Assembly: GCA_902513955.1 (NCBI GenBank)
Contig: CABXOW010000013.1
Span: forward strand, 1 to 32,901
DNA from: an uncultured Pelagibacteraceae bacterium
GTDB lineage: Bacteria > Pseudomonadota > Alphaproteobacteria > Pelagibacterales > Pelagibacteraceae
Length of the DNA stretch: 32,901 nt
Reading direction: 5' to 3'
The notes under the pieces were generated by a model, which saw only the letters and a list, made by a program, of their open reading frames with translations, was not told the DNA's origin and made no database searches. The position numbers were made by a program, and so were the translations under genes. Shown piece by piece: positions 6,974-25,638 of the stretch (positions within the stretch are counted from its first letter, which is position 1; each line of letters opens with the position of its first letter).

Positions 6974-6976
6974 TTT

Positions 6977-9900
6977 TTAATTAAGCTCCACGTTTAATGC
7001 TAATGATTTAATTTCTTTAACTAGAACATTAAATGACTCGGGAATACCTGACTCAAAGTTTTCTTCACCTTTAACTATAGTTTCGTAAACTTTAACCCTA
7101 CCTGCTACATCGTCTGATTTAACAGTTAATATCTCTTGAAGTGTATACGATGCTCCATAAGCCTCTAATGCCCAGACTTCCATTTCACCAAATCTTTGAC
7201 CTCCTAATTGTGCCTTACCACCCAATGGTTGTTGAGTTACCAAACTATAAGGACCTGTTGATCTAGCATGAATTTTATCTTCAACTAAATGGTGGAGTTT
7301 AAGCATATAAATAATACCAACTGTTACAGGTCTATCAAATTTTTCACCTGTTCTACCATCCCACAAGTATGTTTGTCCTGTTCCTGGTAAATTAGCTAGT
7401 TCTAACATTTCTGTTACATTTTTTTCTTTAGCACCATCAAATACTGGAGTTGATATTGCTATACCATTTTGTAAATTTTCACATAAATCTTTAAATTCTG
7501 GTTTTGACAGCTTTTCAACTTTTTCATTAAAAATTTCTTCACCATAAACAGATTTTAGGAATTTCGATATTTTTTCAGTTTTTTCAATTTTTTTATTATT
7601 TTCATTAACTAATTTTTTAACTTCCTCACCAAATTCTTTACAAGCCCATCCTAAGTGAGTTTCCAAAATTTGACCAACATTCATACGACTAGGTACACCA
7701 AGTGGATTTAAAACTATGTCTACTGGTCTTCCATCTTCCCTGTAAGGCATATCTTCTACTGGAACAATTTTACTAACAACACCTTTGTTACCGTGTCTTC
7801 CTGACATCTTGTCACCTGGTCTTAGTCTTCTTTTGATTGCAACGAAAACTTTAACCATTTTCATTACACTTGGTAATAAATCATCACCACTTCTAATTTT
7901 TAAAACTTTATCCTCAAATCTCTCAGTAATATCTTGTTTGGCTTTATTGTACTGGTCTTTTAGTTGAGCTAAAGTTGCTTCATTATTAACATTTGCTACT
8001 GTTATTTTAAATATATCATTGATAGATAACTTATCGATCGTTTCAAAATCTAATTCAGTACTTTCTGCTAAATCTTTAACTTTTTTAGTCAAAGAAGATC
8101 CTGATAAGAATTGTGATGCTCTTTGTTTAATACTTCTCTCTAAAATCTCTTCTTCAACAATTTTATCTTGTTGTACTTGTTCAATTTCAGCTCTTTCAAT
8201 TGTAATAGATCTTTCATCTTTTTCTATACCGTGTCTATTAAATACTCTTACATCAACAACAGTTCCACTGCTGCCTCTAGACATTCTTAATGATGTATCT
8301 GTTACATCTATTGCTTTTTCACCAAAAATTGATCTTAAAAGCTTTTCCTCAGGCCCAGAAGCTGAGTCTCCCTTTGGAGTAACCTTTCCAACCAAAATAT
8401 CACCGGCATTAACTTCAGCGCCAATATAAACGATACCAGATTCATCAAGATTTTTTAATGTTTCTTCGTTCACGTTTGGAATATCTCTTGTAATATCTTC
8501 TTCACCTAATTTTGTATCTCTTGCCATTATTTCATATTCAACAATATGAACAGAAGTAAACACATCATCAGTGACACATCTTTCAGAAATCAAAATTGAA
8601 TCTTCAAAATTATAACCTTGCCAAGGCATAAATGCTACAGTTACATTTTTACCTAAAGCTAGCTCACCTAATTTAGTAGATGGACCATCAGCTATAATAT
8701 CTCCAGATTTAACCTTGTCGCCAACTCTAACTAATGGTTTTTGATTAATACATGTATTTTGGTTTGATCTTTTGAATTTTTGTAAATTATAAATGTCTAC
8801 ACCTGATTTAGAAAAGTCAGTTTCTTCAGTTACTTTAATTACGATTCTTTTACCATCAATTTTGTCTACAGTACCGTCTCGTTTTGCAACAATAGTAACA
8901 CCAGAGTCTAAAGCAACATCACTTTCGATACCCGTTCCTACTAATGGAGACTCAGGTTTCAATAATGGAACTGCTTGTCTCATCATGTTTGATCCCATTA
9001 ATGCTCTGTTTGCATCATCATTTTCTAAGAAAGGTATTAATGAAGCTGCAACTGAAACAAGCTGTTTAGGCGATACATCGATATAATCAATAGTATCTGG
9101 TTTTGCTAAAAGGAAATTCAAATTTTGTCTACAAGAAACTAGTTCTTCAACTATTTTTCCATCTTTATCTAATTTTGTATTTGCTTGGGCAATGGTAAAT
9201 TTAGTTTCTTCCATTGCAGATAAATACTCAACATTGTTTTGAACAACGCCATCCTTAACTTTTTTATATGGACTTTCGATAAAACCATATTTATTAATTT
9301 TTGCATAAGTTGATAAACTGTTTATCAGCCCAATGTTTGGTCCTTCTGGAGTTTCGATCGGACAAATTCTTCCATAGTGAGTTGGGTGGACGTCACGAAC
9401 TTCAAAACCCGCTCTTTCTCTAGTTAAACCACCTGGTCCTAAAGCTGAGACTCTTCTTTTATGTGTTATCTCAGATAACGGATTTGTTTGATCCATAAAT
9501 TGTGAAAGCTGAGAACTTGCAAAAAAATCTTTTAACGAGACTGTTAATGGTTTTGCATTAATTAAATCTTGAGGCATTGCAGACTCAACATCTAATGTTG
9601 TCATTTTTTCTTTAATAGCTCTTTCCATTCTGTAAACACCGATACGAGCTTGATTTTCAACTAATTCACCAACAGAACGTACTCTTCTGTTTCCTAAATG
9701 ATCAATGTCATCAACTTCATCTTTTCCATCACGTAAATCCAACATTTTATGAATGATAGCTATAATATCGTCATTTCTTAAAATAGTGATTTTATCTGAA
9801 CATTCTTGGTTTAATCTTGAATTCATTTTAACTCTACCAACATCAGAAAGATCATATCTGTCTGAGCTAAAAAATAGATTATTAAAAATTTGAGTAGCTA

Positions 9901-11062
9901 TTTCAATTGTTGGCGGCTCACCAGGTCTAAGCATTTTATAGATTTCTGTAATAGCCTCATCTTTTGAATTATTTTTATCATTTAAAATTGTGGTTAATAA
10001 ATAAGGCCCTTTGTTAATTGAATTTGTTACAGAGATTTGTAAAGAATGTATATTTGCATCTAATATTTGTTGAATAACAGCATCATTAAGTTCTGTACCT
10101 ATTGAAAAAGTACCTTCTTCCTCTTCATTTACCTTAACATTTCTGTGTAAACATTTTCCAAATAAAGACTCTTTCGATACCAAAATGTCTTTAAGGCCAT
10201 CATTTGCTAATTTTTTTGCATTTAAAAAATTAATTTTATCACCTAATTTTATTACTACCTCACCAGTCTTTGCATCAACTACTTCCTCTGAAAAGTTTTT
10301 AGCTTTATAATTTTCTGGATTAAATTTTGTTTTCCACTTTTCAGTTTTAGGGTCGTAACTATATTGTTCGTTATCATAAAATTCATCTGCAATTTCTGCT
10401 ATAGAATATCCTAATGCTAATAGTAAAGTTGAAGCAAAAATTTTTTTTTTTCTGTCAATTTTAAAATATAGAAAATCTTTAACATCATATTCAAAATCTA
10501 ACCAAGAACCTCTATTTGGAATTACCCTGCAGTTAAATAATAATTTACCACTTGCATGGGTTTTACCTTTGTCATGATCAAAAAATACACCAGGACTTCT
10601 ATGCATTTGATTTACGACTACTCTTTGCACGCCATTAGTTATAAAAGTACCACTGTTGGTCATCATAGGTACTTCACCCATGTAAACTTCTTGTTCTTTT
10701 GCTGATAAGATGTCTTTTGTATTATTTTCCTGGTCTATTTCATAAACAACTAATCTTAAAGTACATTTAAGAGCTGATGAATATGTTAAACCTCTGGTTA
10801 TACATTCTTCAACGTCAAATTTTGGTTTTTCTAATCTATAAGAAACATATTCTAATGTTGCCTTGTCATTTAAGTCTTCAATTGGGAATATACTTTTAAA
10901 AACTCTATCAAACCCTTTAGTTAACTCTGTTTCAGAATAAAATTCAGTTAATTCTTTGTAAGAATTTTTTTGTACTTCGATTAAATTTGGAATGGATAAG
11001 CTTTCTTTAAGTTTACCAAAACTTTTTCTTATGTTTTTTTTTTCAGTAAAAGATAATTGCAT
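6977..11062 (-). CDS. rpoB: DNA-directed RNA polymerase subunit beta
   Basis: Second catalytic subunit of RNA polymerase. It has 1361 residues, a normal length. The rifampicin-binding cluster reads [20 protein letters not shown] with the usual sensitive residues D, H and S (SALGPGGL) in place. [17 protein letters not shown], the [12 protein letters not shown] block and the C-terminal [19 protein letters not shown] and [24 protein letters not shown] blocks are intact. An uninterrupted run of 11 A (coding strand) lies in codons for DRKKKIF near 10441-10451. The gene follows rplL after a 56-bp spacer containing a strong hairpin, the usual place for rpl-rpo attenuation or processing. Confidence 0.99.
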
Positions 11063-11074
11063 CTATGTTTAATA

Positions 11075-11098
11075 ATACTGATTAAAAATAATCAGTAT
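11075..11098 (-). promoter_or_regulatory. Hairpin between rplL and rpoB (attenuator or processing site)
   Basis: A perfect 10-bp inverted repeat with a 4-base loop: atactgatta, loop aaaa, taatcagtat. It sits in the 56-bp gap between rplL and rpoB. On the minus strand it is followed by TATTAAAC, not a long T tract, so it is a poor full terminator. In E. coli the same gap holds an attenuator and an RNase III site that set the ratio of L7/L12 to RNA polymerase; a similar role is inferred from position. Confidence 0.6.
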
Positions 11099-11118
11099 CC
11101 GAATTCTTTCTTATTAAT

Positions 11119-11484
11119 TTATTTAAGTTCTACTTTAGCGCCTGCAGCTTCTAACTTAGCTTTGATCTCTTCAGCTTCTTTTTTATTTACACCAGACTTA
11201 ACTTCTTTTGGTGCACCCTCTACAAGATCTTTAGCTTCTTTTAATCCTAATGAAGTTGCTGCTCTAACTTCTTTAATAACGTTAATTTTTTTCTCGCCTG
11301 CTGATATAAGCATAATTGTAAAATCATCTTTGTCTTCTGCTGGAGCCGCACTACCTGCTGCTACTGGAGCTGCTGCTGCAATTGGAGTTACACCCCATTT
11401 TTCTTCTAATTGTTTCGATAACTCTGCTGCTTCTGCAACAGTCAAACTTGAAAGATCTTCAATAATTTTATTTAGGTCAGGCAT
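11119..11484 (-). CDS. rplL: 50S ribosomal protein L7/L12
   Basis: Stalk protein that recruits and stimulates translational GTPases (EF-Tu and EF-G are in the same window). It has 121 residues: an N-terminal dimerisation domain ([22 protein letters not shown]), an Ala/Pro-rich flexible hinge ([20 protein letters not shown]), and the globular C-terminal domain with [20 protein letters not shown] and [20 protein letters not shown]. It begins 3 bp after rplJ and is followed by the hairpin before rpoB. Confidence 0.98.
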
Positions 11485-11487
11485 AAT

Positions 11488-12009
11488 TTACTCTTTGGGT
11501 TGTGTTTCAGAATTTTCTGCGGACAAATTACTCATTTTTTCTGAGTATGCAAGAAAAATACTCACTAATTTTGATGCTGGAGCATTCAAAATACCGACAA
11601 TATTTGCTCTCGCTTCGTCTAAAGTTGGTAAACTAGCTACATTTTGGACACCAGCCTGATCTAAGACTTCGTTATCCATTATTCCGCCAATTAATTTTAA
11701 ATTTTCGTTATCTTTTGCAAATTTTGAGAGAATCCTTGCGGACATTATAGCGTCTTCACCAAACGCAACAGCTGTTGGTCCGGTAAATAACCCTGACAAT
11801 TCTTTGCACTTAGTTTTTTCTAAAGCTAATTTAGTTATTCTATTTTTTGTTATTTTAAAGATTATTCCATGCTCTCTCATCTGTGCTCTTAACTCATCTA
11901 GTTGAGTCATTGTTAAACCTTGATAATGAGTAACCATAACAGCTTTGCTATTTTCAAACTGAGTTGTTATTTCTGAAATATAATTCTTTTTTTGCTCTTT
12001 AGTTAACAT
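11488..12009 (-). CDS. rplJ: 50S ribosomal protein L10
   Basis: Anchors L7/L12 dimers to the 50S base. 173 residues, normal for the family. The N-terminal domain shows YISEITTQFENSKAVMVTHY, GLTMTQLDELRAQMREHG and FKITKNRITKLALE, and the C-terminal helix that binds L7/L12 dimers follows. Only 2 bp separate it from rplA, so the long autoregulatory L10 leader known from E. coli is absent here; control would have to act at the upstream end of the operon or within rplA. Confidence 0.97.
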   Translation of the reverse strand: MLTKEQKKNYISEITTQFENSKAVMVTHYQGLTMTQLDELRAQMREHGIIFKITKNRITKLALEKTKCKELSGLFTGPTAVAFGEDAIMSARILSKFAKDNENLKLIGGIMDNEVLDQAGVQNVASLPTLDEARANIVGILNAPASKLVSIFLAYSEKMSNLSAENSETQPKE

Positions 12010-12011
12010 GA

Positions 12012-12701
12012 TTATATCGACTTCCCTAATTTGACTTTATACGAAACTCCCATTGATGAAGTAACAAAAGTATTCTTAATTAAATCACCTTTTAAAGTAT
12101 TGTTAGATTTTTCTTTTTCTAATGCATCTAATATTGCGTGAAAATTTTTTAATAATTGATCATCATGAAATGATTTTTTTCCTATACTAACACCTATATT
12201 ACCATCTTTGTCATTTCTAATTTCAACTTGACCAGATTTTGCATTAGTCACAGCCTCTTTAATATTTTCAGAAACAGAACCTAGTTTAGGATTTGGCATT
12301 AATCCTTTTGGACCCAAAACTTTACCCAATTTAGAAAGCTTAATCATCATTCCAGGTGTGCATATTAATTTTTCAAAATTCAATTCACCGCCTTTAATTT
12401 TTTCAACAAATTCATCGCTACCAACAATATCAGCTCCTGCATCTTTGGCTTCTTGTGTTTTATTATCTTCACAAACAACAGCCACTTTAACTTTTTTTCC
12501 AGTACCACCTGGTAAGTTAACAACGGTTCTAATATTAACTTCACTTTTCTTTTGTTTATTGTTTATTTGAAAAATTAAATCTACAGACTCATCAAATTTA
12601 GTTGTACAATTTTTTTTAACTTCAGGTAATAATTTTTCAATGCCCTCAACGTCAAGATCTTTTGTTTTTTCAGGTAATTTTTTATATCTTTTTGATGACA
12701 T
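12012..12701 (-). CDS. rplA: 50S ribosomal protein L1
   Basis: Forms the L1 stalk beside the E site and guides release of deacylated tRNA. 229 residues; the signature segments are RTVVNLPGGTGKKVKVAVV, the GLMPNPKLGSV motif after KLGKVLGPK, and the C-terminal FVTSSMGVSYKVKL. The start overlaps the rplK stop by one base, as expected for the L11-L1 pair, where L1 represses translation of the bicistronic message in many bacteria. Confidence 0.98.
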   Translation of the reverse strand: MSSKRYKKLPEKTKDLDVEGIEKLLPEVKKNCTTKFDESVDLIFQINNKQKKSEVNIRTVVNLPGGTGKKVKVAVVCEDNKTQEAKDAGADIVGSDEFVEKIKGGELNFEKLICTPGMMIKLSKLGKVLGPKGLMPNPKLGSVSENIKEAVTNAKSGQVEIRNDKDGNIGVSIGKKSFHDDQLLKNFHAILDALEKEKSNNTLKGDLIKNTFVTSSMGVSYKVKLGKSI

Positions 12702-13126
12702 TATTCTTTTACCTCTATACCCATTGATCTAGCTGAACCTGCTATAATTTTTACTGCTTCATCTAAATCATGAGCATTTAAATCATTCATCTTTTGATTA
12801 GCAATATCTTCTAATTGTTTTTTTGATATTGAAGCAACAATATTTCTTCCTGGTTCTTTTGATCCACCTTTAAGTTTTACTGCTTCTTTAATAAAGAAAG
12901 ATGCTGGAGGAGATTTAATTTTAAAATCAAATTTTTTATCTTTATAAACTGTAATTTCCACTGGAACGGGTTTTCCAGCCATTGTTTTAGTTTTTTCATT
13001 AAAAGCTTTACAAAACTCCATAATATTTACACCACGTTGTCCTAACGCTGGTCCTACAGGAGGAGCTGGGTTTGCTTGACCGCCCTTAATTTGTAACTTT
13101 ATAAATCCACTTATTTCTTTTGCCAT
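12701..13126 (-). CDS. rplK: 50S ribosomal protein L11
   Basis: Component of the GTPase-associated centre; it binds 23S rRNA and the stalk base. 141 residues. The N-terminal proline-rich switch region reads [20 protein letters not shown] followed by [12 protein letters not shown], and the C-terminal rRNA-binding part ends in [11 protein letters not shown]. It overlaps nusG by one base and rplA by one base, so the whole nusG-rplK-rplA set is translationally linked. Confidence 0.98.
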
Positions 13127-13656
13127 TAACTTACTTTCTCAACTTGGTTATATTCTAAATCTACAGGTGTTGGACGTCCAAATATAGAAACAGAGACCTT
13201 AAGTCTAGACTTTTCTTCATCTATATCTTCTACCATTCCACTGAATGATGCGAAAGGACCATCTACAACCTGAACTTTTTCACCAACGTTGTATTCTATA
13301 CCAGATTTTGGCTGAGCCACACCATCTTTTATTTGTCCTAAGATTTTTTCAATTTCTTTATCTGATACCGGAACAGGTATTCCTTTTGATCCTAAAAATC
13401 CACTAACTCTCTTTATATTTTTAATCATATGATAAATGTTGTTATCCATTTCACTCTTTATCAATACATAGCCGGGGAAATATTTTTTTTTACGTTGAAT
13501 CCTTTTACCTCTTTTAACCTCAGTTACATCGTGTGTAGGAACAATAATTTCTTCAAATTTTTCACCAATTTTTGCTTTATCTGCTTCTTCTTTAATTAAT
13601 CCAGCAACTTTATTTTCAAAGCTGGAGTGTGATTGAACTATGTACCAATTTTTCAT
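13126..13656 (-). CDS. nusG: Transcription termination/antitermination factor NusG
   Basis: Binds the RNA polymerase clamp, suppresses pausing and links transcription to Rho or the ribosome. The 176 residues consist of an NGN domain ([20 protein letters not shown] ... [11 protein letters not shown] ... [17 protein letters not shown]) and a C-terminal KOW domain ([20 protein letters not shown] ... [16 protein letters not shown]). Both domains are complete. It shares one base with the secE stop. Confidence 0.98.
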
Positions 13657-13847
13657 TAAATGCTCACCTTAAGCAATAGTTCTAAGAAAAACTTTAAAAC
13701 TTGATCTAAAAGAAGAAAAAACAATGACATTGCAACAGCCATTGCAAAAACCATCAAGGCACCTTGTAAAGTCTCTTTCCATGTGGGCCATGAAACTTTA
13801 AATGCTTCCTGTTTTACTTCCTGAATAAATTTAATTGGGTTTTTCAT
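13656..13847 (-). CDS. secE: Preprotein translocase subunit SecE
   Basis: Small essential clamp around SecY in the SecYEG channel. The 63 residues are the minimal single-helix form seen in many bacteria: an amphipathic N-terminal helix (FIQEVKQEAFKVSWPTWKET) with the conserved Lys-Val-Trp-Pro-Thr segment, then one transmembrane helix (about residues 29-60). It lies 16 bp after tRNA-Trp and is fused to nusG by a one-base overlap, the standard order. Confidence 0.96.
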   Translation of the reverse strand: MKNPIKFIQEVKQEAFKVSWPTWKETLQGALMVFAMAVAMSLFFLLLDQVLKFFLELLLKVSI

Positions 13848-13863
13848 AATTTTTAGCTCTAAT

Positions 13864-13939
13864 TGGCAGGAGCGGAGGGACTCGAACCCTCAGCCTCCGG
13901 TTTTGGAGACCGGCGCTCTACCAATTGAGCTACACTCCT
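13864..13939 (-). tRNA. trnW: tRNA-Trp (CCA anticodon)
   Basis: A 76-nt cloverleaf read on the minus strand: acceptor AGGAGTG pairs with CGCTCCT, the D arm is GTAGCTCAATTGGTAGAGC, the anticodon loop CTCCAAA carries CCA, the T loop is GGGTTCGAGTCCC, the discriminator base is G and CCA is encoded. It sits between tuf (9-bp gap) and secE, a widespread bacterial arrangement, and is probably cut out of a tuf-secE transcript. Confidence 0.97.
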
Positions 13940-13949
13940 ATTTATAGAG

Positions 13950-15140
13950 TTACTCTATAATTTTAGTTACTACTCCTGCTCCAACAGTTCTTCCACCTTC
14001 TCTAATAGCAAAATTTAATTGTTCTGACATAGCAATCGGTGTAATCAACTTAACAGTAAATTTAGCATCATCACCTGGCATAACCATTTCTGTACCAGCT
14101 GGTAATTCTACTTCCCCGGTTACGTCCGTTGTTCTAAAGTAAAACTGTGGTCTATATTTAGTAAAGAATGGAGTGTGTCTTCCACCCTCATCTTTTTTAA
14201 GTACATATGCCTGAGCTTCAAATTTAGTGTGTGGAGTAATTGATCCAGGCTTACAAAGAACTTGACCTCTTTCGATGTCAGATCTTTCAATACCTCTCAA
14301 TAAAATTCCTACGTTATCACCAGCTTCACCTGAGTCTAAAAGTTTTCTAAACATTTCTACTCCAGTACAAACTGATTTTTTAGTTTCTTTAATACCTACG
14401 ATTTCAACTTCTTCACCAGTTTTAATTACACCTGATTCAATTCTACCAGTTGCAACTGTTCCTCTTCCTGAAATTGAAAACACATCTTCAACAGGCATCA
14501 AAAATGGTTTGTCAACATCTCTAGCTGGCTGTGGAATATGTTCATCAACAGCTTTCATTAATTCTAAAATTGAATTTTTTCCAATTTCATCATCTCTTTT
14601 TTCTACTGCTGCTAAAGCTGAACCTTTGACAATTGGAGTTTTATCTCCAGGATATTTGTAAGAAGTTAAAAGTTCTCTAATTTCTTCTTCTACAAGTTCG
14701 ATCATATCTTTATCATCAACTTGGTCTACTTTATTTAAGTAAACAACTATAGCTGGAATTCCAACTTGTCTTCCTAAAAGAATATGTTCTCTTGTTTGTG
14801 GCATAGGACCATCAGCAGCGTTAACTACTAAGATAGCTCCATCCATTTGTGCAGCACCAGTGATCATGTTTTTAACATAGTCAGCATGACCTGGGCAATC
14901 AACGTGAGCGTAGTGTCTTTTTTCAGTTTCATACTCAACGTGAGCTGTTGAAATTGTAATTCCTCTTTCTTTTTCTTCAGGAGCTTTATCGATTTGATCG
15001 TAAGCTACTGCTGCTGCTCCACCTGCTTCTGCTAATGTAATTGTGATAGCTGCAGTAAGAGTTGTTTTACCATGGTCGACATGACCAATAGTCCCAATGT
15101 TACAGTGGGGTTTATTTCTAACAAACTTTTCTTTTGACAT
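13950..15140 (-). CDS. tuf: Elongation factor Tu
   Basis: GTPase that delivers aminoacyl-tRNA to the ribosome. 396 residues with all three domains. The P-loop GHVDHGKT (residues 19-26), switch motif [34 protein letters not shown] and NKVD are present, and the domain 2/3 segments [12 protein letters not shown] and [17 protein letters not shown] close the protein. Codon choice and conservation look like a highly expressed core gene. It is embedded in a tRNA-rich transcript (tRNA-Tyr, tRNA-Gly, tuf, tRNA-Trp). No second tuf copy is visible in this window. Confidence 0.99.
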
Positions 15141-16295: not shown

Positions 16296-16371
16296 GCCCT
16301 TGTAGCTCAGTTGGTAGAGCAATTGATTTGTAATCAATAGGTCCGCGGTTCGAATCCGTGCGGGGGCACCA
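16296..16371 (+). tRNA. trnT: tRNA-Thr (TGT anticodon), intact copy
   Basis: A 76-nt cloverleaf: acceptor GCCCTTG pairs with CGGGGGC (two G-T pairs), the D arm is TAGCTCAGTTGGTAGAGC, the anticodon loop TTTGTAA carries TGT, the T arm contains GGTTCGAATCC, the discriminator is A and CCA is encoded. The 3' half and 31 bp beyond it are duplicated at 20568-20647, so this tRNA is the attachment site of island A. It is the functional copy. Confidence 0.97.
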
Positions 16372-16402
16372 TCACTCAATAAAATCAACACTAATTATTT
16401 TT
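16323..16402 (+). repeat. Left copy of 80-bp direct repeat (att-like, tRNA-Thr 3' half)
   Basis: Runs from the 5' strand of the tRNA-Thr anticodon stem through the encoded CCA and 31 bp further. It matches 20568-20647 without gaps at 74 of 80 positions. The two copies bracket island A (pilin array), the pattern left by site-specific integration at a tRNA gene. Confidence 0.9.
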
Positions 16403-16409
16403 GCTAAAT

Positions 16410-16469
16410 TAAATTTTAACTAAATTTTAACATGGAGTGCAGTCATAGTGCAGTCAGATTGCAGTCAGA
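16410..16469. repeat. Tandem 11-bp direct repeats beside tRNA-Thr (2 + 3 copies)
   Basis: Two exact 11-bp units taaattttaac (16410-16420, 16421-16431) are followed by three near-identical 11-bp units: gtgcagtcata, gtgcagtcaga, ttgcagtcaga (16437-16469). They start 38 bp beyond the tRNA CCA, inside island A. Repeats at exactly one helical turn next to an attachment core resemble integrase arm-type sites or response-regulator operators; neither is proven. Confidence 0.85.
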
Positions 16470-16481
16470 TCAAGTAGTTGT

Positions 16482-17147
16482 TTAATTAATTCTATATATA
16501 ATCTTAAAATCTTCTTTTTCTGTACAAAAATAATGCAACCAAATAGAAATATAAGTATAAAATGAAACTATAAACATTGATTGTGATCCTGTTGCAATTG
16601 CAAAACCAAATGGAATAGCAATTGCATAAGTATACATAGCATTAGAAGACCATTTAAAAATTCCTCTTTTTTCAAAAGGCATATCTCTATATTTTGGATC
16701 GAAATGATCAGCACCAGCAGCTCTAACAAATCCAAAATATTTTTTAACTGAATACATTGTATAGAGACCTGGTATAAAAACTATAACAGACAAAGCCCAT
16801 GATATTAATCCAGGTTTATATAAAGAGCCATAATCAACAAAGCACAAAACTACTGCAGAAAATCTTAAAATAATTAAAGTAAAAAAACCTATTAAATACC
16901 CTTTAAGCCCAATTGAACTACTAACTGACTTCCAACATAATTCTGATCTCCAACAAATCCAAGTATAAACTTGATGAACTAAAGGTATGGTCATAGCAAT
17001 CATAAACCAACTTAGAGCACTTATTCTAAGAAAAGTATTTGTATTGCTTTTAAGATCAACAAATTGATAGCCAATATAAAATAACGCAATTGTTCCACCA
17101 ACGTGCCAAATTTGATGTCTAAAGAAAAAATTTAATTTATTTTCCAT
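16482..17147 (-). CDS. Integral-membrane methyltransferase-like protein (ICMT/PEMT superfamily)
   Basis: 221 residues with about five or six transmembrane helices (for example GGTIALFYIGYQF, WFMIAMTIPLVH, YLIGFFTLIILRF, LISWALSVIVFIPGLY, and a pair between residues 165 and 205). The C-terminal part SSNAMYTYAIAIPFG followed by IWLHYFCTEKEDFKIIY resembles the 'RNPMY...HY..TEE.D' signature of isoprenylcysteine/phosphatidylethanolamine methyltransferases, which bind SAM at the membrane face. The usual Arg-Asn-Pro is Ser-Asn-Ala here, so activity is uncertain. It is the most tRNA-proximal gene of island A and separate from the pilins by 83 bp. A role in modifying lipids or pilin N-termini would be pure speculation. 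Confidence 0.55.
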   Translation of the reverse strand: MENKLNFFFRHQIWHVGGTIALFYIGYQFVDLKSNTNTFLRISALSWFMIAMTIPLVHQVYTWICWRSELCWKSVSSSIGLKGYLIGFFTLIILRFSAVVLCFVDYGSLYKPGLISWALSVIVFIPGLYTMYSVKKYFGFVRAAGADHFDPKYRDMPFEKRGIFKWSSNAMYTYAIAIPFGFAIATGSQSMFIVSFYTYISIWLHYFCTEKEDFKIIYRIN

Positions 17148-17174
17148 AATTTTAATTTACCCAGAACCACGATC

Positions 17175-17193
17175 CCTAAAAGTTTTTTCATTT
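17175..17193 (+). repeat. 19-bp direct repeat flanking pilin A1, left copy
   Basis: cctaaaagttttttcattt; matches 17854-17872 (cctataagttttttcattt) at 18 of 19 positions. The pair brackets a 679-bp unit holding one pilin gene and its upstream 11-bp repeats. Confidence 0.7.
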
Positions 17194-17230
17194 GTAAATA
17201 ATTTAGCACAATATAATTTATTTTTACTAG

Positions 17231-17797
17231 TTAATTTTTTGAAGATATTGTGCTCTCAGTAAATTTATTTAATTCGCACATTGTTGTAAGTTTGCATTCA
17301 AATGGATCAGATAGGCCCGCATTTGCACCACAAGCAAATCTAGTAGTTCCCACAATTTGATTATTATTTCTTGAAGGTGTTATAACTGCAGGAAGAGGAT
17401 CTCCTTCAAAAGGATTTCTATATCCCAATCCATAAAAGTGATCATATATTACTGCTTCGCTACCTTGATAATAACCATAACAACTTGGATGACTAGTATT
17501 ATTTGCTGCAACTGCTGCACAAATATCAGTTCCATGAGCATAATACTGTGTGTTTGATGGAAGCCAATGTAACCAGCACATACCTGAATGTTCGACTACA
17601 TCGCAAGTTGATTTAAGATCAACATTTCTCCATTTTCTAAGTATTTCTTTTTTAAAAATTTTATGTTGATTTTTACATTGAGTCATTTTGGTACCTTTAA
17701 CATACCCGCTATAAGCAACTACACCTACAGCAGCAAGAATACCGATGATGGCTACTACGACTAAAAGTTCTATTAGGGTGAAACCTTTTTGTTTCAT
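17231..17797 (-). CDS. Type IV pilin-like protein A1
   Basis: 188 residues starting MKQKGFTLIELLVVVAIIGI: a short basic leader, the prepilin peptidase site Gly/Phe, Glu at mature position 5 and a hydrophobic N-terminal helix. This is the class III signal of type IV pilins and type II secretion pseudopilins, which assemble into filaments from the inner membrane. The variable domain (from about residue 35) has eight cysteines, the most of the set, and the NPF motif (RNPFEGDPLP) also seen in sibling pilins. It stands apart from the other five pilins of island A, with its own upstream 11-bp repeats and a TATAAT 12 bp before the ATG, and is flanked by a 19-bp direct repeat, so it looks like a separate cassette. 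Confidence 0.85.
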   Translation of the reverse strand: MKQKGFTLIELLVVVAIIGILAAVGVVAYSGYVKGTKMTQCKNQHKIFKKEILRKWRNVDLKSTCDVVEHSGMCWLHWLPSNTQYYAHGTDICAAVAANNTSHPSCYGYYQGSEAVIYDHFYGLGYRNPFEGDPLPAVITPSRNNNQIVGTTRFACGANAGLSDPFECKLTTMCELNKFTESTISSKN

Positions 17798-17820
17798 AAC
17801 ATTATTATACTATCTCTCTA

Positions 17821-17842
17821 TGCTATAGTCCTGCTATAGTTG
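17821..17842. repeat. Two tandem 11-bp repeats upstream of pilin A1
   Basis: tgctatagtcc tgctatagttg. The position and flanking text (atctctctatg before it, a TCCTATAA octamer after it) match the tgtacaagt repeats upstream of pilins in islands B and C, but the core of the unit differs (ctatag instead of tacaag). Read toward pilin A1, GAGAGATAG and then TATAAT follow. Confidence 0.7.
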
Positions 17843-17853
17843 TCCCACAAAAT

Positions 17854-17872
17854 CCTATAAGTTTTTTCATTT
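17854..17872 (+). repeat. 19-bp direct repeat flanking pilin A1, right copy
   Basis: cctataagttttttcattt, one mismatch from 17175-17193. Its last bases overlap the stop codon of pilin A2. Confidence 0.7.
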
Positions 17873-18374
17873 AAAACTCAGCAGTAGATACATCTGTACT
17901 AAGGCAATCGCTATTTCCTGTTCCATATCTAGTAATCACAATTATTTTATTTGCTCTCCCTGCAATACTTATTTGACCAAAAGTATTAAGATTACACTCT
18001 GTATTCTTGGTAGGTTGTACTCCTGTTCCACCGTCAAATTGATTTTTCCATTCTTGTTCTCCTGTATTTTGGTGTATAATTGAAAAATGCTGAGCAAACT
18101 TTGTTGCTAAATACCAAGGATCTGAAGTTGCTTTCTTTCTAATTTCATCACATTTAAGATTAATACCATGAGATAATTTTGGTTCCTCACCGAAAATACA
18201 TCTCGCAAGTTCCGCTTGAATAATTTTAACAACTAGTGCATGATTAGTTTTTGTTACTGCAACTTTTGCAGCTTTCGTATACCCATTATAAGCAACCACC
18301 CCTACTGCAGCTAGAATACCGATGATAGCTACAACGACTAGGAGTTCTATTAGAGTGAAGGCATTTCTATTCAT
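17871..18374 (-). CDS. Type IV pilin-like protein A2
   Basis: 167 residues, leader MNRNAFTLIELLVVVAIIGI, then the shared AAVGVVAYNGYTKAAK stretch. The variable domain holds four cysteines, a helix KTNHALVVKIIQAELARCIF and WKNQFDGG at the place where siblings have (W/F)KNP(Y/F). It is the last gene of a five-pilin run; its ATG lies 4 bp after the stop of A3, indicating one message. The asparagine before AFTL, where most siblings have Lys, is still compatible with prepilin processing. Confidence 0.85.
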   Translation of the reverse strand: MNRNAFTLIELLVVVAIIGILAAVGVVAYNGYTKAAKVAVTKTNHALVVKIIQAELARCIFGEEPKLSHGINLKCDEIRKKATSDPWYLATKFAQHFSIIHQNTGEQEWKNQFDGGTGVQPTKNTECNLNTFGQISIAGRANKIIVITRYGTGNSDCLSTDVSTAEF

Positions 18375-18378
18375 GGGT

Positions 18379-18861
18379 TTATGGGTATTGAGATATAGGC
18401 CATTGATAAACTATAACTTTACCCCTGCATCTCATTCTTAATTTAAATCCAGCACTCTCAGGATAATATGCTATGCCACCATCCATTGGTGGATCTCCAA
18501 TGTAAGTTAAAATAGGAATGTTGTATGTTAAATTAGGTTCGTATGGACTAGAGGCATAATTACCAAAACTTTTAGTTGTTTCACCTGCAATAGTTCCAAA
18601 ATTTTGGGGACAAGATAACATTCTATCTTTTCCAGGAGTATTATTTGTATATTGCATCTTTATATTAATTTCATTTTGAAACTCACAAAATGTATAATTT
18701 TGGACTATCATTTTTTTTAGAAGTGAGAAATTATTCTTACATACAGATTCTTTTGCACTAGCGGTATACCCATTATAAGCAACAACACCTACCGCAGCGA
18801 GAATGCCGATGATGGCTACTACGACTAGGAGTTCTATTAATGTGAAGGCTTTATGATTCAT
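18379..18861 (-). CDS. Type IV pilin-like protein A3
   Basis: 160 residues from the ATG at 18861 (MNHKAFTLIELL); an in-frame TTG one codon upstream is not needed. The ATG overlaps the stop of A4 by one base (TGATG). After the invariant N-terminus the variable domain has four cysteines (AKESVCKNN, YTFCEF, LSCPQNF, RMRCRGK). It lacks the KNP(Y/F) motif; instead it has PYEPNLTYNIPILTYIGDPP. It is the most divergent C-terminal domain in the run. Confidence 0.85.
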   Translation of the reverse strand: MNHKAFTLIELLVVVAIIGILAAVGVVAYNGYTASAKESVCKNNFSLLKKMIVQNYTFCEFQNEINIKMQYTNNTPGKDRMLSCPQNFGTIAGETTKSFGNYASSPYEPNLTYNIPILTYIGDPPMDGGIAYYPESAGFKLRMRCRGKVIVYQWPISQYP

Positions 18862-19370
18862 CAATCAAGTTTAATTGTATTTTCAAGTCTGTTATCTGAA
18901 CTATTGCACGGCGTTTTGATACAAGTGCAAACAGTAACATTATCCCATCCGTTTCTTGAGTTTATCCAAACAAATCCAGCATTTGCATCTCCACTTGCCG
19001 CATTTCTACACCAACCTGGTTGCTGAACTCTGTTACCAGTTGATTTGTATGGATTTTTCCATCTACCATTATTATCCATATCATTAATTAAATAATCAGC
19101 AAAAAATGTAAACTGGTTTCCATAACAATTAATATTATTTTTAGTTTTATTGTTTGGTATCGACATCATTGTTACACTGCCATTAATATTGCAATCTTGT
19201 ATTGTTAAAGTAACTTTTTTTACAACATTATTATGATTTGTTTTAGAGGCGTTAACTTTTGCTGCACTCGTATACCCATTATAAGCAACCACACCTACTG
19301 CAGCTAAAATACCGATGATGGCGACAACGACTAGGAGTTCTATTAGGGTGAAAGCTTTTTTGTTTCGCAT
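18861..19370 (-). CDS. Type IV pilin-like protein A4
   Basis: 169 residues from the ATG at 19370 (MRNKKAFTLIELL); the longer reading MEIV... begins inside the end of A5 and would spoil the short basic leader. The variable domain has six cysteines, GSVTMMSIPN, NNGRWKNPY and the tail CTCIKTPCNSSDNRLENTI. These blocks recur in pilin B1 of island B (GSVTMMKVYG, NNGRYTNPY, CICFEEPCSNSDNRLEEEI), so A4 and B1 are close paralogues in different islands. It starts 2 bp after the A5 stop. Confidence 0.86.
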   Translation of the reverse strand: MRNKKAFTLIELLVVVAIIGILAAVGVVAYNGYTSAAKVNASKTNHNNVVKKVTLTIQDCNINGSVTMMSIPNNKTKNNINCYGNQFTFFADYLINDMDNNGRWKNPYKSTGNRVQQPGWCRNAASGDANAGFVWINSRNGWDNVTVCTCIKTPCNSSDNRLENTIKLD

Positions 19371-19372
19371 TA

Positions 19373-19897
19373 CTATTTCCATTGTGCTGTATAAGTAATC
19401 ACGTTTGAACTATCGCTACAAGGACTATCAACACAGGTACATACTTCTATAGTTTTTGTTGAAGTTTTATAATCCATATTAACATATCCAATATATTTTT
19501 CTTGCGTACATGCCCAACTATTTCCTTCCATTGCAACATAATTTTTTCCCCATGGTTCTTTTGTATGGTTATTTTTCCATTCAATTGAGTTGTTTAAATC
19601 ATTGGTAAAATATGTTCTAAAAAACAAATATGTATTTACATCATACCAACATCCTTTTTCATATTCAGTTTTATCATATCGTTTCAACATCAGTTTTACT
19701 TTGCCATTGGAGCTAATATCACATTCTTGAATTAACAAATTAAGCTTTTTAACAGCTGTACTATGATTGGATTTTGATACCGCTACCTTTGCGCTGTTAG
19801 TATACCCATTATAAGCAACTACCCCTACAGCAGCTAGAATACCAATGATGGCTACAACGACTAAAAGTTCTATAAGTGTAAAACCATTTCTTTTCAT
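19373..19897 (-). CDS. Type IV pilin-like protein A5
   Basis: 174 residues from the ATG at 19897 (MKRNGFTLIELL), which overlaps the A6 stop as ATGA; the in-frame ATG 15 bp upstream would add MYYSQ from inside A6. The variable domain has WKNNHTKEPW at the KNP position and the same Cys-rich tail type as A4 (EVCTCVDSPCSDSSNVI). The mature N-terminus would be Phe after Gly, as in A1, while most other siblings have Ala before Phe. Confidence 0.86.
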   Translation of the reverse strand: MKRNGFTLIELLVVVAIIGILAAVGVVAYNGYTNSAKVAVSKSNHSTAVKKLNLLIQECDISSNGKVKLMLKRYDKTEYEKGCWYDVNTYLFFRTYFTNDLNNSIEWKNNHTKEPWGKNYVAMEGNSWACTQEKYIGYVNMDYKTSTKTIEVCTCVDSPCSDSSNVITYTAQWK

Positions 19898-20475
19898 CTG
19901 TGAGTAATACAAACAATTGTACTTAAAACTTTGTCAGAACCTGTTGATGAAAAAGTCCAATACTCATCTGTTAGACCCGATTGAACTACCATTTCTCTAT
20001 CACATCCATTTTTTTCAACAGTTAAACTGTAAAGACCAATTTGTCCTTTGCACATTTTTTTACCAAGGTGCGCTGACTGTATAGAAGTCATATCAGTCCA
20101 ACCAGACCAAATATCACAAGTTCTATCTTTACCTACACTGCCGTACGGATTTTTTACCATACCTTGATATCCAATGTGTGTTTGCAAAACATTTTCGTGA
20201 AATGGTGTCTTGTTATAGTCTGTAACGTTAGAGCAATCTTTATTTTGACCACCACCACTATTATTTGTTTGTCTAAAGATTGTACCACCATTCATTACAC
20301 ACTTCATCGCATCAGTTTGTATCCATTTAACTACCGCTTTATGGTTTTGCTTAACAACGGCTTTTTTAGCAGAACTTGTATACCCATTATAAGCAACCAC
20401 CCCTACAGCAGCAAGAATGCCTATGATGGCTACAACGACTAGGAGTTCTATTAGGGTGAAGGCTTTACGATTCAT
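19894..20475 (-). CDS. Type IV pilin-like protein A6
   Basis: 193 residues, the longest sibling, leader MNRKAFTLIELL. The first gene of the five-pilin run in island A (A6 to A2), all joined by overlaps or gaps of at most 4 bp. The variable domain has KQNHKAVVKWIQTDAMKCVM, a short Gly/Asn stretch (NNSGGGQNKD), VKNPYGSVGKDRTC and a long C-terminal extension ending SDKVLSTIVCITHR. The helix KxNHK resembles that of pilin C2 in island C. No promoter resembling those of islands B and C is found upstream (20476-20567). Confidence 0.86.
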   Translation of the reverse strand: MNRKAFTLIELLVVVAIIGILAAVGVVAYNGYTSSAKKAVVKQNHKAVVKWIQTDAMKCVMNGGTIFRQTNNSGGGQNKDCSNVTDYNKTPFHENVLQTHIGYQGMVKNPYGSVGKDRTCDIWSGWTDMTSIQSAHLGKKMCKGQIGLYSLTVEKNGCDREMVVQSGLTDEYWTFSSTGSDKVLSTIVCITHR

Positions 20476-20567
20476 ATAAAAACTCTACCAATGTTACCAG
20501 ATTTTTGCCAAACATAAATTATTTTTCAAATGTCGTTATAAACAAATAATTATTTAAGAGATGAGTC

Positions 20568-20647
20568 TTGATTTGTAATTAATAGGTCCGCGGTTCGAAT
20601 CCGTGCAGTGACACCATCGCTCAATTAAATCAACACTAATTATTTTT
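20568..20647 (+). pseudogene. tRNA-Thr 3'-half remnant, right att-like repeat
   Basis: Gap-free match to 16323-16402 (74/80). It holds the anticodon arm, variable loop, T arm and CCA but no 5' half, so no tRNA can form. Three of the six changes fall in the acceptor strand (gtgcagtgacacca instead of gtgcgggggcacca), showing loss of constraint. The rest of the gap 20476-20728 shows no gene or clear signal. Confidence 0.9.
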
Positions 20648-20728: not shown

Positions 20729-22408
20729 TTAATGGATGGCTTCGTTTTGATTGGAAATAACAGGGGTTTTTTTCTTAGCTAGTGCTTTTTTTTCAGCTCT
20801 TTCTTTTTTTCTTGTTAAGTAATTATCAAAAGCTTTAGTGCTTTTATTTGAACCATTTTTATTGTTTTGGTCTGTTGTAAATCTATCTGCATCAGACGAT
20901 GTAGCTTCCCAATTTACCATACCATCCATAGTTTCATTTCCTTGTATTGCAATGACTTGAGATTTTACGTTCGTTTTCTTTATATTATTTACTTCATTGC
21001 TCCCACTATGATGTCTAAACCCTCTAAAAGAAGTATCTTTATTTGTGTAAAGGTGGTCAATTTGTTCTAAAGTTCTTTTTTTTTGTTTATCATAATAATT
21101 TTTCATCAGCTCTGAATTGGCCCAACGTAAACATTCATAATATTCCTCATCGCTTAATTCTGTAAAATTACAACAAATTAAATCTGAGTTTAAATGTTTT
21201 CTTTCATAAAAATCTTCTGCTGGATTATCTTTGTCTAATAAACCCATTTTTATAGCATCATAATAAAGGGGCGAACCAGGATATGGCGTTACCGGTCTAA
21301 TTGTTCTTTTCTGAGCAAAATCATCATACTTGATTAAAAAATTAACTGCTTTTTCTATTGTCTCTCTATTGTCACCCTTATTTCCAAAAATGAAATTAAG
21401 ACCAGGGCTTATTCCAACTTTCAATGTGTCTTCAATACCCTGAACAATCATTTCTGGTCTAAGTCCTTTTTTCATATTATTTAAAACTGTTTGATCCACG
21501 CTTTCTATTCCATAATTGATAAATACACAGCCAGCATCTTTCATTAATTGTAATAATTCTTCACTACAATAATTTAATCTTCCGTTGCACATCCATTTAA
21601 TTGGTAAATTTCTTTTTATAAATGCTAGACATACTGCTTCCGTATGCTCAACTGATGACATTAACAGATCATCTTGGAAGGAAATATAATTAATTCCATA
21701 TTTCTTATGTACCATTTCAACTTCATCTAACAAATTTTCTGGTGTTCTCATCCTGTATCCGGGGTCCATACGATAACAAAAAGTACATTTAAAAGTGCAG
21801 CCTCGTGCTGACATTAATGGAAGTAAAAAATCTGTAGCTTGTGCTTTTGCAAACCTTTGCATTCTATAATATTCCATTGGAAATAATTCATATGGAATTG
21901 GAGGTAAATGATTTAAATTTGCAACCAAGGGCGCTCTTGGAGTTTTTCTAAGTTTACCATTTTCCAACCATGCAATTCCTGGAACATTTTCTAGAGATGT
22001 TTTATTTGTGATGGAATCCATCAATTTTGTAATTGTAACTTCTCCCTCGCCTAGCCCTACAGCATCACAACCAGATTTTTTTAAAAAAAACTCAGGCTCA
22101 GGGGTTGGACCATAACCTCCTAAAACGTAAAATGGTCGATTTTTAGAACTGTTAATAGCTTTTGATAAGCTTTTCATCTTAGCATACTGATAGTAGCCTC
22201 CAATTAGGCTAAAAACTAGGACATCAAACTTGTTTTCGTCAAGATATACTCTTAGATAATCGTCTGGCCAATGATGTTTATCTTGATTCCATATCGTAAC
22301 ATCATGTCCATCTCTTTTAACAATTGCTGCAAGGGCACCTACACCCATTGGGAATGTATGATCAAACGAACCATTATCATATACTACAAATAAAACTTTT
22401 AGTCCCAT
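20729..22408 (-). CDS. B12-binding-domain radical SAM protein (class B type)
   Basis: 559 residues. The N-terminal Rossmann-like part (about 1-135; KVLFVVYDNGSFDHTFPMGV, GHDVTIWNQD, VLGGYGPTPEPEF, GLGEGE) is a cobalamin-binding-domain fold. The radical SAM domain follows with Cys204-x3-Cys208-x2-Cys211 (ARGCTFKCTFCY), GNMK-like and C-terminal strands including NYGIESVDQ. Such enzymes use a 4Fe-4S cluster, SAM and usually methyl- or hydroxocobalamin for methylations or rearrangements; the substrate cannot be read. Residues from about 440 onward form a low-complexity Lys/Asn/Ser-rich tail ending in KKERAEKKALAKKK, not part of the family core. It is divergent from the cobalamin-riboswitch-controlled receptor gene, suggesting linked cofactor supply and use. 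Confidence 0.85.
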   Translation of the reverse strand: MGLKVLFVVYDNGSFDHTFPMGVGALAAIVKRDGHDVTIWNQDKHHWPDDYLRVYLDENKFDVLVFSLIGGYYQYAKMKSLSKAINSSKNRPFYVLGGYGPTPEPEFFLKKSGCDAVGLGEGEVTITKLMDSITNKTSLENVPGIAWLENGKLRKTPRAPLVANLNHLPPIPYELFPMEYYRMQRFAKAQATDFLLPLMSARGCTFKCTFCYRMDPGYRMRTPENLLDEVEMVHKKYGINYISFQDDLLMSSVEHTEAVCLAFIKRNLPIKWMCNGRLNYCSEELLQLMKDAGCVFINYGIESVDQTVLNNMKKGLRPEMIVQGIEDTLKVGISPGLNFIFGNKGDNRETIEKAVNFLIKYDDFAQKRTIRPVTPYPGSPLYYDAIKMGLLDKDNPAEDFYERKHLNSDLICCNFTELSDEEYYECLRWANSELMKNYYDKQKKRTLEQIDHLYTNKDTSFRGFRHHSGSNEVNNIKKTNVKSQVIAIQGNETMDGMVNWEATSSDADRFTTDQNNKNGSNKSTKAFDNYLTRKKERAEKKALAKKKTPVISNQNEAIH

Positions 22409-22540
22409 ATTGGAAATTTTTATTATATTTGAACATAAATAACAAGTTTAAATAAATTTAACTTATATAGCTATTTTTATTAACAATTTAAATTCTTGAC
22501 ACTGTTATTATTTTATTTTATCAAAAAAATATGTTGAATA

Positions 22541-22660
22541 AGTGAGTGGGAAATCAATGCGAAATTCATTGGCTGTACCTGCAACCGTATAGTCGGAGCA
22601 CCACCCAACATAGTCCGCTGTTGAATGAAGGCCAGGGAAAGTCTAGTTCTACTAATAAAA
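22541..22660 (+). ncRNA. Cobalamin riboswitch
   Basis: In the 315-bp divergent gap 22409-22723. Recognisable blocks in order: GGGAA, a stem with TCAATG-CGAAA-TTCATTG (the usual GGTGmGAATCC arm), GCTGTACCTGCAACCGTA (matching the GCUG-CCCGCAACUGUA core), a CACCACCC stretch suited to the kissing loop, and GGCCAGGGAAAGTCTAGT near the end (B12-box region). It sits upstream of a TonB-dependent receptor, the classic BtuB setting. Edges are approximate; the remainder of the gap on the left (22409-22540) is AT-rich and must hold the divergent promoters. Confidence 0.85.
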
Positions 22661-22684
22661 ATTAGCATCGGCATTAAAATAAAT

Positions 22685-22707
22685 CAATCTTGTTATTAAC
22701 AAGATTG
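22685..22707 (+). promoter_or_regulatory. Hairpin between riboswitch and receptor start
   Basis: A perfect 10-bp stem (caatcttgtt / aacaagattg) with a 3-base loop, directly before the ribosome-binding sequence agagaggtg (22711-22719) and ATG at 22724. There is no T tract, so control of translation initiation fits better than termination. Likely expression platform of the riboswitch; the alternative pairing was not worked out. Confidence 0.55.
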
Positions 22708-22723
22708 AATAGAGAGGTGTCGT

Positions 22724-24586
22724 ATGATCTTGAGATCAAGTCTATTTGTATCATTAATTATATTATTTCTATTTTCAAAAGTCAGTGCACAAATACTTGA
22801 AAATTGTAAATGGAATAATTCTAATGGCACTCCATGTGTTACAGTTAGCAAGACGCCTAATAGTTCTGATTACAATGAAATAGGCATTAACAAAAAAATT
22901 ATTACAAAACAAGAAATTATAGAGTCTGGTGCAATTGACACCAATGATATATTTAAATTAATACCAGGACTTGATGTTTTTCAATCAGGTCAGAAGGGTC
23001 AACAAACATCAATATTTACTAGAGGGTCTGAGTCTAATCACACTCTAGTGCTTTTAAATGGTATTGCTATTAACGATCAATCTACTACCGATGGTTTACA
23101 TGACTTTGGTCAAGACTTTGTACAAACAATACAGCAAATTGAAATTTATAAAGGTCCTAGTGGTGCTCATTTTGGACCAAGTGCAATTGCTGGTGCTATA
23201 AATTTTATTACTGATGTTGATTATTCAAATAGTTATTCTCTTGGTGGATTTGATAAAAGGAATAATTCTATATCAGGAAATCATACAAAAATTACAAAAA
23301 ATGGTTGGCATTTAAACTTAAAAGGTACACTGAATCAAAGTAGAACTGATAGCGCTATCGCAAAAGGAAATGAGGAGGATGAAACAAAAAATTATCAATT
23401 AAATATTAATAGTAAAAAATGGATAAATGATAATTTAAAAATTAATTCTACTTTATACTCTAGAAGAACTTTATCTGATTATGATGGGAGCGCCACAAAT
23501 GAAATTGGATATATTTCTGATAACAAAATGTATGCTCTTCAATCAGGTTTGGAATATAAAACAAAGAACTCAAATAATAATGTTACATTACACTACCATA
23601 GTTATGATAGAAATTATGAAAATGGAGGATATTTAGATGAATACTATAGTGAGGCATTAAATATAAAGCTAGAGAGCAAAATTATTGCTAATGAAAAACT
23701 TTCATTTGGATATGGAGGTCAATATAAGTACGATTGGGGTAGTTTTGAAAACCGAGGTAGCTATACCGCATCAACAAAAGGTCACGTAAAAGATTTAGCT
23801 GTATTCACAAACGCTGGGTACAAATTTAATGAAAAACAAATATTATCAATTTATACAAGGGCTGATGATCATAAAACTACAGGAAGTAATCAAAATTATA
23901 AAATAAACTTTACTCAAATTTTTGAGGACTTCAAATTAGGCTTAACACACTCAACAGGTCTTAGAAATCCATCTTTATACGAATTATATGGATCTGATAA
24001 TTTTGGAATAAGTGGAAATATACATCTTAAACCAGAAAAAAGTAAAACTAATGAAATCTTTGCAGAATATAATATTTCAAAAAAATTAAAATTTAGTTCT
24101 TCAGCCTATAGAACAACAATTTATGATCGAATAAAAACTAACTCTGCTTACTCAAAACACGAAAATAAAACAACTGATTTAAAGCAAGAGGGTATTGAAA
24201 ACGAATTATTTTTTAAAGGTATAGATAAATCCTTTTCTATATTTGCAAATTTTACAAAAAGCAGAAATGTTTCTGGTGGTCATCAATCTCGAAGACCAGA
24301 TTTAACTTACGGTTCAAATTTTACAAAAAAAATTTTATTTAAAAATTATGGCCCTTTTAATATAAATTTAAATTATAAGTTTACTGATAGATATTTAGAT
24401 TGGGATGGATCAGCAAATACATTTCAAAAAAGTACAAATCTAATAGATTTATCAATTAAAAAGAATTGGTTAGGAAACTCAATCTCTTTCAATATAACTA
24501 ATTTACTTAATGAGAGATACGAAAAACCAGCTACGTATAGCCAAGACGGTAGACAATTTAGATTTAACTTTACCAAATCATATTAG
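22724..24586 (+). CDS. TonB-dependent outer-membrane receptor, probably cobalamin (BtuB-like)
   Basis: 620 residues with a signal peptide (MILRSSLFVSLIILFLFSKV then SAQ). The plug domain (about 45-150) shows IITKQEIIESGAIDTNDIFK, IPGLDVFQSG, FTRGSESNHTLVLLNGIAIN and VQTIQQIEIYKGPSGAHFGP with SAIAGAINFIT, the typical receptor plug. The rest is a beta barrel of alternating aromatic strands, including GLRNPSLYELYG and ILLFN-type NLLNERYEKPATY, ending in an aromatic residue (RQFRFNFTKSY) as needed for BAM insertion. No clear N-terminal TonB box was pinned down. Cobalamin as ligand is inferred from the riboswitch upstream and the 22-strand family resemblance; it could also take a cobinamide-like compound. 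Confidence 0.85.
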   Translation: MILRSSLFVSLIILFLFSKVSAQILENCKWNNSNGTPCVTVSKTPNSSDYNEIGINKKIITKQEIIESGAIDTNDIFKLIPGLDVFQSGQKGQQTSIFTRGSESNHTLVLLNGIAINDQSTTDGLHDFGQDFVQTIQQIEIYKGPSGAHFGPSAIAGAINFITDVDYSNSYSLGGFDKRNNSISGNHTKITKNGWHLNLKGTLNQSRTDSAIAKGNEEDETKNYQLNINSKKWINDNLKINSTLYSRRTLSDYDGSATNEIGYISDNKMYALQSGLEYKTKNSNNNVTLHYHSYDRNYENGGYLDEYYSEALNIKLESKIIANEKLSFGYGGQYKYDWGSFENRGSYTASTKGHVKDLAVFTNAGYKFNEKQILSIYTRADDHKTTGSNQNYKINFTQIFEDFKLGLTHSTGLRNPSLYELYGSDNFGISGNIHLKPEKSKTNEIFAEYNISKKLKFSSSAYRTTIYDRIKTNSAYSKHENKTTDLKQEGIENELFFKGIDKSFSIFANFTKSRNVSGGHQSRRPDLTYGSNFTKKILFKNYGPFNINLNYKFTDRYLDWDGSANTFQKSTNLIDLSIKKNWLGNSISFNITNLLNERYEKPATYSQDGRQFRFNFTKSY

Positions 24587-24620
24587 TTGTGATTTTTTTT
24601 TAGTTTAATATAATTTATTA

Positions 24621-25109: not shown

Positions 25110-25130
25110 GATTTTAAAAGTTTTTTCTTT

Positions 25131-25565: not shown

Positions 25566-25638
25566 AATCTTTTTCTATTAAAAAACTTTATCACTATGTT
25601 AGGAGTGTGTTAAGAATGTTTTTCAGTCAAGTAGTCTT

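Follow-up and report, generated by a model that had tools for sequence, protein, structure and literature searches.

Tandem 11-bp repeats beside tRNA-Thr in a SAR11 genome as probable arm-type sites of an integrase that the island itself does not encode

What is the role of tandem 11-bp repeats beside a tRNA gene if the island that begins there encodes no integrase? The question is raised by a stretch of 32,901 nucleotides from an uncultured Pelagibacteraceae bacterium, here called the window, in which a tRNA-Thr(TGT) gene (16296-16371, plus strand; ARAGORN and blastn) appears to have been the target of an integration. The initial annotation had placed two exact and three near-exact 11-bp units 38-98 bp past the end of this tRNA, and ARAGORN and TRF agree with it: two exact copies of TAAATTTTAAC (16410-16431, plus strand; TRF) form an AT-rich spacer between the tRNA core and 3.2 copies of GAGTGCAGTCA (16435-16469), in which three 11-bp GTGCAGTCA units ending in TGCAGTCA (16435-16467, plus strand) are recognized as a putative left arm by TRF, by the lag-11 score, by a matrix and by the model R1. 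They are followed by the tail GATCAAGTAGTTGTTTAA (16468-16485, plus strand), which is conserved after the arrays of several relatives. Taking all five units as one array on one helical face turned out to be mistaken, as the two sets differ in sequence and an ATG intervenes, which shifts the second set by 3 bp against the 11-bp phase of the first (starts at 16410 and 16435, 25 bp apart).

Chance repetition in AT-rich DNA would agree with the TRF scores of the two sets (44 and 56), which are unremarkable among the 43 TRF rows of the AT-rich window, and for the TAAATTTTAAC pair, of which no tandem counterpart was found in the other tRNA-Thr flanks read, chance is the best account; this pair is not regarded as an arm site, and in this part the proposal of integrase arm-type sites had been too wide. 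For the three GTGCAGTCA units, where that proposal is strongly supported, chance is hardly credible: their lag-11 score was matched by 1 of 20,000 Markov-1 sequences of the same flank, the pair TGCAGTCA-N3-TGCAGTCA occurs in only one of 399 genus genomes, that of the window, R1 matches the arm with E=8.9e-6, and held-out arms in other genomes likewise lie at tRNA-Thr. A matrix built from other genomes gives left-arm scores of 31.9 at 16444 and 30.4 at 25601, the next best unrelated site reaching 7.5, and the corresponding right-arm matrix gives 20.5 at 20478 and 17.7 at 25581, followed by 3.6 (top scores of 20 shuffles, 9.6 for the left and 11.6 for the right arm).

The island and its ends

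A second match to the tRNA region in the genome of the window (20568-20647) comprises tRNA-Thr positions 28-76, which lie at 16323-16371 in the complete gene (blastn), at 92% and a further 31 bp, and the repeats therefore sit just inside the left end of an island of 4.2 kb (16371-20567). Like other tRNA-integrated islands, it has a complete tRNA at one end (16296-16371) and a direct repeat of the tRNA 3' part at the other (attR, 20568-20616, plus strand). Its genes are all on the minus strand and encode a PEMT-like membrane protein of 221 aa (16482-17147, PF04191) and six pilin-like ORFs (within 17231-20475, singly at 17231-17797, 17871-18374, 18379-18864, 18861-19382, 19373-19912 and 19894-20475), all six with the N-terminal methylation motif PF07963. 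By Pfam, no integrase is found among the ORFs of the island; the genome (82.8% complete) contains one PF00589 match, on another contig, and no integrase of the type of the viral contig L098, discussed below, at E<=1e-10. The supposition that the island keeps its cis sites while lacking the enzyme is strongly supported for the GTGCAGTCA units by the integrase-bearing elements with units of the same kind and by the arm match within elements, both described below. A short relic of the leader MKKLLGIVVLG is seen at 17160-17191 on the minus strand, and the same leader starts many cargo ORFs across several islands; further pilin-like ORFs with the same N-terminus are found beyond a tRNA-Leu (27628-28699 and 31828-32775).

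The candidate right arm (20478-20517, plus strand) has the best right-arm matrix score in the window, is of a degenerate TGTTACC type that also occurs in genome G035, is unlike the left arm, and is not found by the right-arm model R2 at E<=0.001. The match between the two arms of the island is only 15.2, which is rank 26 of the 27 elements compared below and a clear exception, and because the right arm fails to match the left one, this copy looks composite or partly dead. Behind attR follows a second cargo block (20729-25565) with a radical SAM/B12-binding protein (minus strand), a TonB-receptor plug protein (plus), a DUF6580 protein (plus) and a CBS protein (minus), and then a right arm (25581-25620, plus strand) that overlaps a left arm (25601-25642, plus strand) in one shared 11-bp unit, with no tRNA core in between. 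This left arm is also found by R1 (E=2.9e-5), which thus finds both left arms of the window; R2 at E<=0.001 finds neither of its right arms. The overlapping arms at 25581-25642 are read here as the scar of a fusion in which neighbouring elements were joined through their arms; such a fusion would explain composite islands with unmatched ends, and with a right end that is composite or decayed, the copy in the window may no longer move as a unit. The fused arms are followed by an ORF of 118 aa without Pfam family (25639-25995, minus strand) and by the chromosomal neighbour, an NAD kinase gene (26000-26770, minus strand); in eight loci of the same genus (G056, G021, G060, G049, G018, G027, G010, G012), the first ORF after tRNA-Thr is one similar to this NAD kinase.

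Arrays and matching arms in related genomes

A search with the tRNA region gave matches in 101 of 101 genomes, other tRNAs included, from which 40 same-genus and 20 order-level loci were taken as the sample of relatives. Among the same-genus loci with a complete tRNA-Thr (n=40, window included), 18 also show one or more tRNA-Thr 3' fragments further downstream, with 1.0-7.7 kb to the first of them, and such a fragment follows in 9 of the 20 order-level loci, while genome G007 has only a fragment and no complete copy. In one order-level locus (L080 of G083, oriented 1214-3204), four tRNA-Thr 3' fragments follow the complete tRNA about 400-550 bp apart, with one small ORF between each pair, like an array of cassettes, and arms of the SAR11 type were not seen there by eye.

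The sequences after the tRNA-Thr 3' ends differ and yet share a layout of 11-bp units and then a tail like ATCAAGTAGTCGTTT, for which a reading as an IHF site was considered and not adopted. Of 64 flanks, 22 score best at a lag of 11 (the runner-up, 26, is the best lag in 6), and lag-11 arrays were found in 27 of the 64, which because of partial homology are not independent, compared to 2.7 expected (at most 7 in 100 Markov-1 replicates), with a cut-off of 11.5 for the lag-11 score that was picked after the scores had been seen. At the complete tRNA-Thr sites, 20 of 40 have such an array in the same place, and 19 of these 20 genomes are integrase-less inside the island, some of the islands ending at contig ends (PF00589 searches of 61 genomes at E<=1e-8 and of 7 at E<=0.001). 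The one exception, G039, has a 451-aa ORF (phrog_1) and arms of another type, and its locus L074 (oriented 1202-8898) is a phage-like element of 7.7 kb at tRNA-Thr. The islands of G016, G054 and G028, with no PF00589 match inside, have arms that match each other in a style loosely similar to that of G039, hinting at a second integrase family behind arms of this kind; an integrase of G028 (C42:39045) adjoins tRNA-Leu outside the island and was rejected as the island integrase.

If the arrays are arm sites of an integrase, the two ends of an element should belong together, and this is what was found. In 27 elements, 23 from the loci plus G412, M17, L098 and G292, the best 19-mer match between the own left and right flanks averages 28.2, compared to 20.5 (sd 0.84) with permuted right flanks (p=5e-5), and for 11 of the 27 no other right flank scores higher than the own one. 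In two subsets picked after this result, the arm match persists without the integrase-bearing elements (27.2 versus 20.8 permuted, n=22) and within one arm family, the window left out (29.4 versus 24.0, n=15); the elements are related to each other and permutation leaves this relatedness in, which makes the permutation p-values optimistic. Unrelated repeats in different strains with the same island ends had been named as an outcome that would refute arm sites, and the sequences do indeed differ, but they change in step at both element ends, which is expected if arms follow the specificity of an integrase.

As the exact tail AATCAAGTRGTCGTTT occurs in only 4 of 121 genomes, models were used instead: R1 for the left arm (42 positions, from 12 arms) and R2 for the right arm (40 positions, from 15), both without tRNA sequence and trained without the right arms of G017 and G010, without arms that lack the anchor motif, and without the arms of the window. 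With the training genomes counted in, each model has a match at E<=0.001 in 64 of the 250 genus genomes, and the share is lower in genomes that are at least 90% complete (5 of 37 for left and 8 of 37 for right arms). Thirty loci were returned for each arm. Of the 21 held-out left arms, which come from genomes that had no part in the models, 19 are found some 65-90 bp behind a tRNA-Thr 3' end, the exceptions being G177 at a contig start and G119 elsewhere. Of the 19 held-out right arms, 17 are followed after about 50 bp by a tRNA-Thr 3' fragment, with G052 at a contig end and G115 without fragment as exceptions. For 57 of the 76 left arms, a right arm follows downstream on the same contig and strand, at a median distance of 1290 bp (84-6913 bp), and for none of the 76 is there one on the opposite strand. 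Cargo is barely common between species representatives; cargo identity as a sign of recent transfer was uninformative, since its 50 matches of at least 250 bp are by position mostly NAD kinase.

Integrases with arms of the same style

The sites of lambda-family integrases consist of a core with arm sites on either side, which are repeated at roughly the period of the helix. The SAR11 elements resemble them in core and flanking arms and differ in that the arms are found on elements that do not encode an integrase. Some integrase-bearing elements do have the same arm style. In the viral contig L098 (8.9 kb), a tRNA-Thr 3' core adjoins an integrase ORF (PF00589, phrog_1), TGCGGA-type units occur at 11-bp spacing in both arms, and a primase/helicase-like protein as well as a terminase small subunit are encoded. 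Relatives of this integrase are present in 19 of 399 genus genomes at E<=1e-10; sixteen of them are 27-37% identical, and three are close, namely those of G292 (76%), located at a tRNA-Asn-like core, and of G287 (73%) and G412 (65%, a fragment of 78 aa), both beside tRNA-Thr fragments. Besides two records that match G292 and G287, a scan of genome contigs turned up M17 (from AH-326-M17), a SAR11 element of 6.9 kb that sits at tRNA-Thr and encodes both an integrase and a DUF5906 primase. In L098, G292, G287 and M17, two 11-bp units are located shortly before the start of the integrase ORF, and the far side carries the same unit type in L098, M17 and G292, while the contig of G287 ends before. 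Two SAR11 elements of 6-7 kb look satellite-like, with integrase and primase: L217 at tRNA-Thr (7851-14853) and L141 at tRNA-Asn (about 2283-8773); a capsid gene was noticed in neither. The residue just before IRRSFHK is E in the integrases of L098 and G292, which have TGCG-type arms, and W in those of M17 and G287, which have TGTTG-type arms, and in this comparison of four sequences by eye it is a possible arm-recognition position.

Repeats of this kind could also serve as operators, or as some other regulatory or RNA element that belongs to the neighbouring gene or to the tRNA, as regulators can bind tandem 11-bp repeats. This is very improbable, however, because the repeats lie past the 3' end of a convergent gene (16482-17147), recur at the far element end beside another tRNA fragment, and flank integrase genes.

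The initial annotation had suggested to look for the same 11-mers with a neighbouring integrase in SAR11 genomes, and here the outcome was negative: among the 399 genus genomes, TGCAGTCA-N3-TGCAGTCA occurs in that of the window only, and neither these genomes nor the viral contigs examined yielded an integrase with TGCAGTCA arms. The motif is present in 42 viral stretches, none of which by eye resembles the SAR11 site. In 5 of 8 checked stretches (L176, L182, L193, L198 and L213), TGCAGTCA occurs twice at 11-bp spacing at the end of an ORF that by eye resembles a tyrosine integrase of other phages, apparently a parallel to the window arm and not a homology. The pattern TCCTATGTTG-N6-TAGTG gave 29 viral stretches, by eye with two repeated units in L098 only, and among 24 distinct viral contigs with a tRNA-Thr 3' half (two scans), 23 show the tRNA 5' half upstream, L098 alone being without it. 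Two element-end motifs tried on the viral contigs gave no match, and thus no packaged copy was found.

Borrowed integrases or relics

The GTGCAGTCA units are therefore best explained, with good though not full confidence, as arm-type sites for a tyrosine integrase of the phage family, carried by elements that lack the gene for it and are probably moved in trans. In this view they make up the left arm of an island that inserted at tRNA-Thr, one of many small elements in the same genus, most of them integrase-less, that each retain an attachment site of tRNA 3' core, left arm (two to five 11-bp units) and right arm (two units). The cargo would be moved when a satellite or temperate phage provides a related integrase in trans, which would attach to both arms and draw them to the core. 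The architecture, the arm match within elements, the stacking and the absence of integrases from the checked islands can be read directly from the DNA. Arrays, arm match and model results together suggest that SAR11 genomes carry small cassettes that are probably moved by borrowed integrases; binding, excision, transfer and mobility, as well as the identity of the helper, we infer. Against active spread count the zero packaged copies with two motifs, the lack of a TGCAGTCA integrase and the little common cargo, and against this explanation as a whole the unmatched arms of the window and its attR at 92%.

In another reading, the islands are decayed satellites or prophages that have lost their integrase and are immobile today, comparable to CIMEs, and arms persist because the decay is recent. 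The mismatched and decayed right end of the window island, the fused arms without core, the truncated integrase in G412 and the failure to find packaged copies all agree with relics. Relics are nevertheless rather unlikely, since arms match within the 22 elements that bear no integrase and yet differ between elements, a right arm is retained for most left arms, and cargo varies widely between loci; as this reading shares the interpretation as arm sites, its probability and that of movement in trans do not exclude each other.

CIMEs, cis-mobilizable elements, are described in passages of PMC5704250 as decayed ICEs or IMEs that have kept attL and attR, lost their integration genes and can be stacked at one target gene. 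The window island, too, has both attachment sites and no integration genes, and G412 keeps an integrase fragment that might stem from such a decay, but the arms of the SAR11 elements still match in most cases, the elements are small, with a median arm-to-arm gap of 1.3 kb, and their related integrases are of satellite or phage type. In being small marine islands they resemble the phage satellites PICMI (PMC10803314, in part) and the VEIMEs and tycheposons (parts of PMC11389934 and PMC10872708). PICMI models, as given in part of PMC10803314, require integrase and primase, which M17 has with its DUF5906 primase, AlpA and Fis not being noticed there, whereas the class of the window island is without both; of the PICMI set of int, alpA, primase and fis, none is among the Pfam matches of the window island. 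CALINs, integrase-less arrays of integron cassettes, are alike in that small cassettes without integrase are stacked and, in SAR11 probably, moved in trans (passages of PMC11389934), but the boundaries of SAR11 elements are tRNA-Thr cores with arms and not attC sites. For SAR11 hypervariable regions, PMC2217521 reports an absence of attC sites, an integrase gene in one region, and another region with pilin genes that is flanked by tRNA genes. A description of the elements presented here was not recognized in the accessible text of the open PMC literature, including PMC12595487, PMC9745183 and PMC7318151, with preprints and most subscription papers outside of it.

SAR11 bacteria are called the most abundant marine microorganisms (PMC12753301), and the turnover of their variable regions has so far been unexplained. 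Where no integrase is resident, matched arm arrays provide a concrete cis-signature of turnover by integrases, and their sequence predicts the helper that could move a given cassette. It may be, and this is put forward tentatively, that the integrases of passing satellites or phages capture, stack and exchange tRNA-anchored SAR11 cassettes at tRNA-Thr, each cassette having a core and matched arms but lacking a recombinase of its own, with the arm sequence as a password and with recombination between left and right arms as the process that fuses neighbouring packets. If this is true, it is the arm sequence that determines the integrase by which a given packet, with its one to a few genes, is moved.
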